Source: a virus. Taken from it: a stretch of 21,213 bases of DNA. The stretch is from the IMG/VR virus record IMGVR_UViG_3300024255_000193, positions 1 to 21,213 of that record, one strand, 5' to 3'. The notes under the pieces are model-generated. The model did not search any database. It was not told the DNA's origin and worked only from the letters and a program-made list of their open reading frames with translations. Position numbers and translations under genes: made by a program. Position 1 is the first letter of the stretch. The number at the start of each line of letters is the position of its first letter. Of the stretch, positions 10,249-21,213 are shown piece by piece.

Positions 10249-10277
10249 ATTTTAGCACAAAAAAGGAGGGGCGTCAA
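10249..10277 (-). promoter_or_regulatory. Sigma70-type promoter for rnh, -35 in the terminator loop
   Basis: The minus strand reads TTGACG (10277-10272), 17 bases, TAAAAT (10254-10249). The -35 hexamer is precisely the six-base loop of the terminator, and the spacer consists of the 3' stem arm, the T-tract and four more bases. A purine-rich AGGAG follows the -10. It should start the replication operon at rnh. Confidence 0.7.
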
Positions 10278-10284
10278 CCCCTCC
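10259..10284 (-). terminator. Rho-independent terminator after the 84-aa gene
   Basis: The minus strand has GGAGGGG, loop TTGACG, CCCCTCC and six T. The stem is a perfect seven base pairs, six of them G-C. It lies eleven bases past the stop of the 84-aa gene and ends the glutaredoxin operon. Confidence 0.9.
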
Positions 10285-10295
10285 CGTGTGTAGAT

Positions 10296-20273: not shown

Positions 20274-20555
20274 TCAGTCCATGACTTCATCCATGGAATA
20301 TGTCTCCACCTTACCTAGTTCAATGTCCTCAACCATTTGCATCAGATACTCCAGGAACTCTTTGGGATACACATCATCTTCATTCAACGAAACCCAGAAC
20401 CATTCTTTACACTCTTCCTCTGGGTCGTCATCGCTCATCAGCGCGTACCCATCATACCGTGATGACGTGAGATCACACCAAATGCGGAAAGTAGAGCGAA
20501 TGCTCTTCCATCCTGTCATCCAGGCGTGTCCAATCCAATACTCATACCAGTTCAT
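20274..20555 (-). CDS. Conserved acidic 93-aa cyanophage protein
   Basis: A 93-residue protein rich in tryptophan and acidic residues: MNWYEYWIGHAWMTGWKSIR at the start, TFRIWCDLTSSRYDGYAL, then DDDPEEECKEWFWVSLNEDD and the end METYSMDEVMD-like (KVETYSMDEVMD). I do not know its function; the form is one seen in other cyanomyoviruses near psbD. It has its own strong promoter in the preceding terminator (20584-20612) and no terminator follows, so the pilin genes downstream are probably on the same transcript. Confidence 0.75.
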   Translation of the reverse strand: MNWYEYWIGHAWMTGWKSIRSTFRIWCDLTSSRYDGYALMSDDDPEEECKEWFWVSLNEDDVYPKEFLEYLMQMVEDIELGKVETYSMDEVMD

Positions 20556-20583
20556 ACTTCATGGGTCTGATGTCTATGGAGTC

Positions 20584-20612
20584 ATTATACAATAAAAAAC
20601 CACCCCAGTCAA
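20584..20612 (-). promoter_or_regulatory. Strong sigma70-type promoter, -35 in the terminator loop
   Basis: The minus strand reads TTGACT (20612-20607), 17 bases, TATAAT (20589-20584): eleven of twelve consensus bases with ideal spacing. The -35 lies in the loop of the psbD-operon terminator and the spacer is the 3' stem arm plus T-tract. It should drive the 93-aa gene and probably the pilin genes. Confidence 0.78.
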
Positions 20613-20621
20613 TGAGGTGGT
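20594..20621 (-). terminator. Rho-independent terminator after the psbD operon
   Basis: The minus strand has ACCACCTC, loop ATTGACT, GGGGTGGT and then TTTTT. The eight-pair stem has one G-T pair. It follows the 69-aa gene by about 20 bases. Confidence 0.88.
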
Positions 20622-20643: not shown

Positions 20644-20853
20644 TTAATCATTGTAAAGTTTTTCTAGTTTGTCTCTTGTGAAGTCCACATACATCACTTC
20701 TTCTCCTGCTTCAGGAGCCTCAGGGTGACGAGGTTTAGGTGGTGCTGGTGGAGTGTTCCAGATAGACTGGATGTTTGCGTACATCATAGCTGCAGCTCCT
20801 CCTGCTATGAGACAGAAGGAGACCAGATAGATGACGATGAAGAATGTGTTCAT
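20644..20853 (-). CDS. Small membrane protein downstream of psbD
   Basis: A 69-residue protein with an N-terminal membrane helix (FFIVIYLVSFCLIAGGAAAM, residues 4-23) and a proline-rich, then acidic tail (NTPPAPPKPRHPEAPEAGEE, ending DKLEKLYND). Proteins of this shape follow psbD or psbA in several cyanomyoviruses, from memory. It may sit in the thylakoid or plasma membrane; role unknown. It is 13 bases after the 40-aa ORF and precedes the terminator, so it belongs to the psbD operon. Confidence 0.7.
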   Translation of the reverse strand: MNTFFIVIYLVSFCLIAGGAAAMMYANIQSIWNTPPAPPKPRHPEAPEAGEEVMYVDFTRDKLEKLYND

Positions 20854-20866
20854 GTCGTGTTGGATG

Positions 20867-20989
20867 TTAGTTGCGTTGATAAGATGGAATCATCATTCCA
20901 CCATCCCTGTCGTCATCGTCATCAGTATCCTGAAAGACTAAGAATAATATTAAGAGGATTGTCCACCCCAGAATGTATTCAAAGTGCAT
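20867..20989 (-). CDS. 40-aa membrane micro-ORF overlapping the psbD end
   Basis: A 40-residue ORF whose ATG (20989) lies 11 bases inside the 3' end of psbD. It has a single hydrophobic helix ([15 protein letters not shown], residues about 5-19), an acidic run ([11 protein letters not shown]) and a polar end (MMIPSYQRN). The overlap suggests coupled translation with D2. It resembles small photosystem-associated membrane peptides in form only; I recall DDxDGG-type short ORFs after phage psbD. Confidence 0.6.
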
Positions 20990-21213
20990 TTCCGCGAGGC
21001 AATACTTCTTCAGGGAATACGAAGTTCTCATGTGGTTGGTCAGCAGGTGCCATCCAAGCACGGAGTCCTTCATTCAATAGAATGTTCTTCGTGTAGAAGG
21101 TCTCGAACTCAGGGTCTTCTGCTGCACGAATCTCTTGACTTACAAAATCGTAAGCACGAAGATTGAGAGCAAGCCCAATAATGCCAATAGAGGAGACCCA
21201 AAGACCCATAACA
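20979..21213 (-). CDS. psbD: Photosystem II D2 protein, C-terminal part
   Basis: The last 78 codons of psbD; the gene continues beyond the window. The sequence contains the fully conserved D2 ending: [20 protein letters not shown], then [20 protein letters not shown] and [19 protein letters not shown]2 pairs with D1 in the photosystem II reaction centre. Cyanophages carry psbD with or without psbA to keep photosynthesis running while the host proteins decay. No frameshift or odd residue is visible in this part. It heads a short operon with two small membrane ORFs that ends at the terminator at 20594. Confidence 0.97.

Follow-up and report, generated by a model that had tools for sequence, protein, structure and literature searches.

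Putative fusion of an intrinsic terminator and a sigma70-type promoter at the end of a psbD operon in a T4-like marine cyanophage

A 38-base stretch on the minus strand (20621-20584) behind the psbD operon of a marine cyanophage was found to carry a terminator-like hairpin and a T6 run interlocked with TTGACT-N17-TATAAT. Judged from its sequence, this element is probably (about 80%) an intrinsic terminator fused with a sigma70-type promoter, forming the border of two tandem operons.

The DNA analysed, referred to as the window, is an IMG/VR record of 21,213 bases and represents a fragment of a T4-like marine cyanophage genome. It contains genes for gp32, RNase H, PhoH and tail fibres, as well as a pilin-like gene and psbD. 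The psbD end matched 425 phage records at 60-90% identity, nearly all of them from Synechococcus or Prochlorococcus phages; psbD of the window was 94-97% identical to that of six cyanomyoviruses and 84% identical to that of S-SKS1. The initial annotation had placed the element at the end of the psbD operon, and this was borne out, as the upstream gene is the psbD C-terminus (21212-20979, minus), followed by two small ORFs between psbD and the element. The pilin-like gene (20209-19751, minus), which has a type IV N-methylation motif (PF07963, phrog_3433), is situated close downstream of the psbD operon; a pilin is annotated near psbD in ACG-2014f as well. The features of the region are as follows.

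20979..21212, minus strand: psbD, C-terminal part, upstream operon (phrog_182; protein comparison)
20644..20853, minus strand: small ORF of 69 amino acids, final gene ahead of the element (homologue after psbD in other cyanophages)
20599..20621, minus strand: putative terminator hairpin of 9 pairs (sequence, RNA folding, stem covariation)
20621-20613, minus strand: 5′ arm, ACCACCTCA (sequence)
20612-20608, minus strand: loop, TTGAC (sequence)
20607-20599, minus strand: 3′ arm, TGGGGTGGT (sequence)
20607..20612, minus strand: putative -35 hexamer TTGACT, made up of the loop and the first base of the 3′ arm (sequence)
20594..20599, minus strand: T6 tract, predicted U-tract of the terminator, within the promoter spacer (sequence)
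20584..20589, minus strand: putative -10 hexamer TATAAT, spacer of 17 from the -35 (sequence; start expected at about 20577)
20274..20555, minus strand: ORF of 93 amino acids, phrog_31449, function not assigned, opening the unit past the element

Read on the minus strand, the order is ACCACCTCA-TTGAC-TGGGGTGGT-TTTTT-ATTG-TATAAT. The anatomy of an intrinsic terminator is present, with a hairpin of 9 pairs followed at once by T6, and so is that of a sigma70-type promoter, with -35 and -10 hexamers separated by a spacer of 17 (16-18 required). The near-consensus promoter proposed in the initial annotation, using the 3′ arm and the T-tract as its spacer, holds with 11 of 12 matching positions, a score tied with the highest for that half of the window. 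The loop given there as ATTGACT is the same loop as TTGAC, counted without the closing A-T pair. RNA folding predicted the hairpin within a 74-nt stretch at -16.8 kcal/mol, with z = -1.26 versus shuffles; with z no further from zero than this, the fold energy by itself is no proof of the hairpin. In an alignment of 14 copies, the hairpin, T-tract and hexamers were kept, and 3 of 8 stem pairs showed two-sided changes.

A second element of the same kind directly precedes the T4-type RNase H gene (ORF 10258-9380; PF02739/PF09293).

10264..10285, minus strand: putative terminator hairpin, loop TGAC inside TTGACG (sequence)
10249..10277, minus strand: putative fused promoter TTGACG-N17-TAAAAT, with extended -10 TG (sequence)

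From 10285 to 10249 on the minus strand, it reads GGGAGGGG-TTGAC-GCCCCTCC, T6, GTGC and TAAAAT. Its stem had been described as unrelated to that of the psbD-end element, and the two sequences do differ; the possibility that the elements are copies of one repeat was ruled out on these unrelated stems. Among eleven genomes examined, homologues of the RNase H junction were found only in S-CRM01, S-PM2 and HTVC008M. Other composite sites were seen in the window. At 12984-12956 (minus), the spacer of TTAACA-N17-TATAAT is filled by a hairpin (12983-12963), which is an RB49-type layout. At 18990-18939 and 10992-10945 (both minus), promoter-like sites matching 11 and 10 of 12 positions have TATAAT directly followed by a terminator-like hairpin, so that transcripts begun there would end almost at once.

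Fused elements were counted under a rule calling for a match of 4/6 or better at the -35 and 5/6 or better at the -10, a spacer of 16-18, a stem of at least 6 pairs with 3 G-C, a loop overlapping the -35 by at least 3, and TTTT ahead of the -10. Two were observed in the window, versus a mean of 0.005 and a maximum of 1 in 200 dinucleotide-preserving shuffles, in agreement with the earlier view that two cases in 21 kb are not due to chance. Ten cyanomyovirus genomes contained 25 fused elements versus a summed shuffle mean of approximately 1.1 (per-genome means 0 to 0.25; 20 shuffles each): S-CAM8, 3; S-SM2, 2; Syn9, 0; S-PM2, 1; ACG-2014f, 4; S-CRM01, 1; P-SSM2, 3; ACG-2014g, 1; S-CAM7, 4; and S-SKS1, 6. 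Outside this group, the counts were 7 in phage K (two being terminal-repeat copies), 6 in PSU4 and 2, both poor-looking, in RB49. None was found under the rule in T4, Syn9 or the related pelagiphage HTVC008M. A search of relatives had been proposed with the initial annotation, and the pattern was indeed present in them, though lacking in Syn9 and HTVC008M, indicating that the design is not used by every relative; the phage's own genome is represented by the 21-kb fragment.

The spacing between hairpin and -10 was highly regular. The window and the ten cyanomyovirus genomes together gave 13 terminators with a TTGAC loop, of which 12 had a -10 (at least 4/6) at a spacer of exactly 17 and the 13th had TATAAT at spacer 16; for 9 of the same 13, the -10 at spacer 17 reached at least 5/6, compared with 0-2 at other spacers. 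All 7 TTGAC-loop terminators of the Staphylococcus phages K and PSU4 (two being terminal-repeat copies) likewise had a -10 at spacer 17; matches of 5/6 also occurred at spacers 12 and 28, in 5 of 7 each, making the spacing less telling in this AT-rich DNA. The 47 terminators examined in T4 and RB49 included none with a TTGAC loop. Among 139 terminators of nine cyanomyovirus genomes, -10s clustered 10-11 bases past the start of the T-tract (15 and 12, with a background of about 2). Thirty-five -10s in these nine genomes were located 8-12 bases past the T-tract start, and in 17 of them a -35 matching 4/6 or better lay 16-18 bases away, compared with 0, 0 and 2 of 35 at control spacings. A chance origin was ruled out by the shuffles, the spacing profile and the recurrence of the element.

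T-tracts were enriched at sites with a hairpin at the -35, yet they were not required. Of the 80 sites at which a hairpin loop held a -35-like box, 23 had a run of T6 or longer ahead of the -10, versus 48 of 3196 promoter-like sites (1.5%). Of the 80 hairpins, 53 lacked a T run of 4, many of them having weak stems or lying inside genes; therefore, a hairpin at the -35 is not necessarily a terminator. In S-CAM7 and ACG-2014f, strong hairpins with a -35-like loop (e.g. AGGCA) and a -10 are repeated without a T-tract, so a T-less class also exists; these hairpins are perhaps operators or T-less terminators.

An 81-base query taken from the psbD-end element matched 52 places in 41 phage records, 40 of which were cyanophages and one the Staphylococcus phage vB_SurM-PSU4. 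Thirteen of the 52 places were inspected. The element was at the end of the psbD operon in S-SKS1, S-CAM9, two S-CAM8 isolates, S-RIM12, Syn1 and S-RIM44, followed by differing genes, and at locations other than psbD in S-CAM7 (two places), ACG-2014h, ACG-2014i and S-SSM5; the S-SSM5 copy failed the hairpin-plus-T rule. In S-CAM8 (counterpart of the element at KU686203, 159733-159779), a 44-base stretch after psbD was identical over the hairpin, T-tract and -10. Not all phages had a fused element at this position: psbD is followed by ordinary terminators in S-PM2 and Syn9, and ACG-2014f has plain ones further on.

Homology between relatives tended to break at the edges of the element. S-CAM8 isolates BI06 and PA29 aligned over 746 bases with 95.6% identity, the match beginning exactly where the PA29 hairpin begins; just upstream, the two were unrelated. 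Between S-CAM8 and S-RIM12, homology ended 3-4 bases past the -10 and resumed at the next gene, the two blocks being separated in S-RIM12 by an insertion of approximately 600 bases with two genes. S-CAM9 and S-CAM8 also diverged just past the -10, and the two S-CAM7 copies had only about 75 bases in common, consisting of the element and a start codon. Such breaks are suggestive of the pattern that PeSL-mediated exchange would leave (PeSLs are described below). The loci were picked by similarity of the element, which favours shared elements with differing flanks; thus, the breakpoints are suggestive and do not constitute a test.

The element was also searched for in IMG/VR. A gapped scan gave at least 127 sites, and among the matches listed a hairpin on TTGAC was present in 12 of 47 at spacer 17 and 1 of 80 elsewhere. 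In a tight promoter/T-tract scan, a hairpin was present at 52 of 122 contig sites among the matches listed (the window being extra), and in 2.3% when the upstream arm of these 122 sites was shuffled as a control. Many contigs carried a fused element, with stems unrelated to each other. The reusable design suggested in the initial annotation is supported by these unrelated stems, the S-CAM8 copy and the excess in the ten cyanomyoviruses. Proteins of the contigs with a hairpin were mostly cyanomyovirus-like. With the same tight pattern, a hairpin was found at 5 of 120 bacterial and archaeal loci versus 51 of 120 viral loci among the matches listed, which disfavours an origin in host genomes, in a genome sample that was mostly gut Clostridia and in which cyanobacterial hosts were absent among 80 listed bacterial/archaeal matches. 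Pattern search alone was applied to P-HM2, P-SSP7 and SPO1, and gave no match in the latter two.

Two variants were noted among the contigs. In 16 cyanophage contigs, a bulged fused element had a variable outer stem and a nearly invariant inner hairpin, e.g. AACTGG-CAAAAT-CCAGTT, in the order inner hairpin, -35, T-tract and -10; this inner hairpin may serve as an RNA operator to which a protein binds. The top match in 10 of these 16 contigs was a cyanophage protein of approximately 830 amino acids, taken as gp43 DNA polymerase by its size. Fused elements of several (8) contigs shared a leader right after the -10, like ACCTTTGTYGAGGT, with a possible small 5′ hairpin.

Regarding gene context, the nearest upstream ORF was on the same strand for 36 of 38 elements in isolates, and 26 of 38 remained under a stricter rule (same-strand gene within 60 bases, element outside ORFs). 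In contigs, a stop on the same strand, no more than 60 bases upstream, was found for 30 of 49 sites with a hairpin versus 29 of 65 without, a difference that was not significant (p = 0.09).

Based on this anatomy, the element would work as follows. A polymerase coming from psbD would transcribe the hairpin and U-tract and free the psbD-operon RNA near 20594. Host RNA polymerase with a sigma70-type factor would bind the same DNA, with the -35 in the loop and the 3′ arm plus T-tract as the 17-bp spacer, and RNA would begin near 20577, serving the 93-aa ORF and the genes beyond. Since this start is past the hairpin, the hairpin would appear in RNA only from the upstream polymerase, as is needed of a terminator between tandem units, and one compact block would insulate the two units. 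Being short and portable, the block may also mark borders of gene-module exchange among relatives, as the homology breakpoints suggest. A more speculative scheme, which we regard as improbable, is that the polymerase dropping its RNA at the U-tract stays in the promoter spacer and restarts by recycling, so that the output of a psbD-type operon feeds the next unit, and that cyanomyoviruses and staphylococcal Herelleviridae reached this layout independently.

Three other explanations were weighed. The element might only be a terminator ending the psbD operon, with the loop sequence and TATAAT being fortuitous or vestigial. Its strong hairpin, T-tract and site at an operon end agree with this, and AT-rich DNA past T-tracts can look like a -10. 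It is nevertheless quite unlikely, as the cyanophage -10 matches are confined to one spacing, the preference for a -35 is gone at control spacings, and -10s are not in excess at the tested position of T4/RB49 terminators (3 versus 2 in the control). Alternatively, it might be a promoter with a palindromic operator, in which the repeat around the -35 is a regulator site or cruciform and termination is incidental. Palindromes around the -35 are typical of operators, and the repeated T-less hairpins of ACG-2014f and S-CAM7 are in line with this. However, stems differ between copies even within one genome, unlike the operators of one regulator; the enrichment of T6 or longer runs (23/80 versus 1.5%) also argues against it, and the G-U pairs and compensatory changes are in keeping with an RNA structure, so we consider this very unlikely.

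A further explanation is that the element is mainly a recombination cassette, a repeated block kept for the swapping of gene modules, with secondary roles in transcription. In its favour are the identity of PA29 and BI06 beginning at the hairpin's first base, the S-CAM8/S-RIM12 homology that halts just past the -10 and is back after two inserted genes, and the two S-CAM7 copies that share only the element. Against it, the two elements of the window are not homologous, which indicates that the layout arises without copying; the layout is also found in Staphylococcus phages, and the way the loci were gathered biases toward shared elements with differing flanks. This explanation appears unlikely, and the fused terminator and promoter remains the preferred reading.

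If the fused element works as read, approximately 40 bases serve as two signals, and annotation that treats terminators and promoters separately would miss it. It would also provide cyanophages with a portable operon border tolerating changing neighbours, in this case at the psbD operon, which matters in ocean photosynthesis. The layout turns up in two phage families that are unrelated, which points to a general solution among large phages relying on a host-type polymerase.

Several known systems resemble the element in part. In post-termination recycling, RNA polymerase reinitiates at a promoter near the terminator, reportedly dependent on terminator-promoter distance (PMC6978380, PMC11347151). 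As presented there, recycling was demonstrated in vitro for E. coli polymerase, on a terminator and promoter that were separate, and is not a sequence element. By analogy, recycling may occur at the present element, and the element would offer a natural test of the model, the distance on which reinitiation is predicted to depend (PMC6978380) being cut here to overlap. In Kayvirus vB_SauM-515A1, RNA-seq gave an early consensus TTGACW-17-TATANT with a TRTGN extension, 42 hairpin-polyT terminators, and an early promoter, p98, directly after terminator t97, which late transcription largely reads through (PMC7698491); such a border may therefore leak late in infection. This early consensus is very similar to the promoter considered here, and 7 fused elements were counted in the related phage K, whereas sections 3.3-3.4 of PMC7698491 describe no base sharing between terminator and promoter. 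The gene junction of the second element, at RNase H, also carries an annotated terminator in S-CRM01; this resembles the second element in its hairpin, T-tract and TAGAAT, and differs in its loop, CCTA, with no -35 in it.

In kind, the element is like the PeSLs (promoter early stem-loops), composite promoter-terminator motifs of T4-like phages reportedly described by Arbiol et al. in 2010 and Comeau in 2014. By sequence, both combine a sigma70-like promoter and a stem-loop terminator in one small cassette, and both occur repeatedly in T4-like phages at the edges of variable gene modules (seen here in relatives, the window being a fragment). PeSLs are also characterised by a high density in hyperplastic regions. 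Strict fused elements numbered 0-6 per cyanomyovirus genome. For S-PM2, a low density of PeSLs is noted by Puxty 2015 (PMC4503421). In RB49 and T4, the hairpins are located about 27 bases before the -35, in the spacer or around the -10, and three regions of T4 were seen to have hairpins with a -10 hexamer in or near the loop. The present element differs from the RB49/T4 layout, its terminator loop serving as the putative -35 and its T-tract falling within the spacer. No description of a terminator loop that holds a -35 box was recognised in the literature searched, which was mostly open papers, with the PeSL work covered by title and by a passage in PMC4503421. With its -35 in the loop, unlike the RB49/T4 layouts, the element appears PeSL-like in working and new in form: composite promoter-terminators are already known in T4-like phages, so that it would represent not a new category but a new layout.
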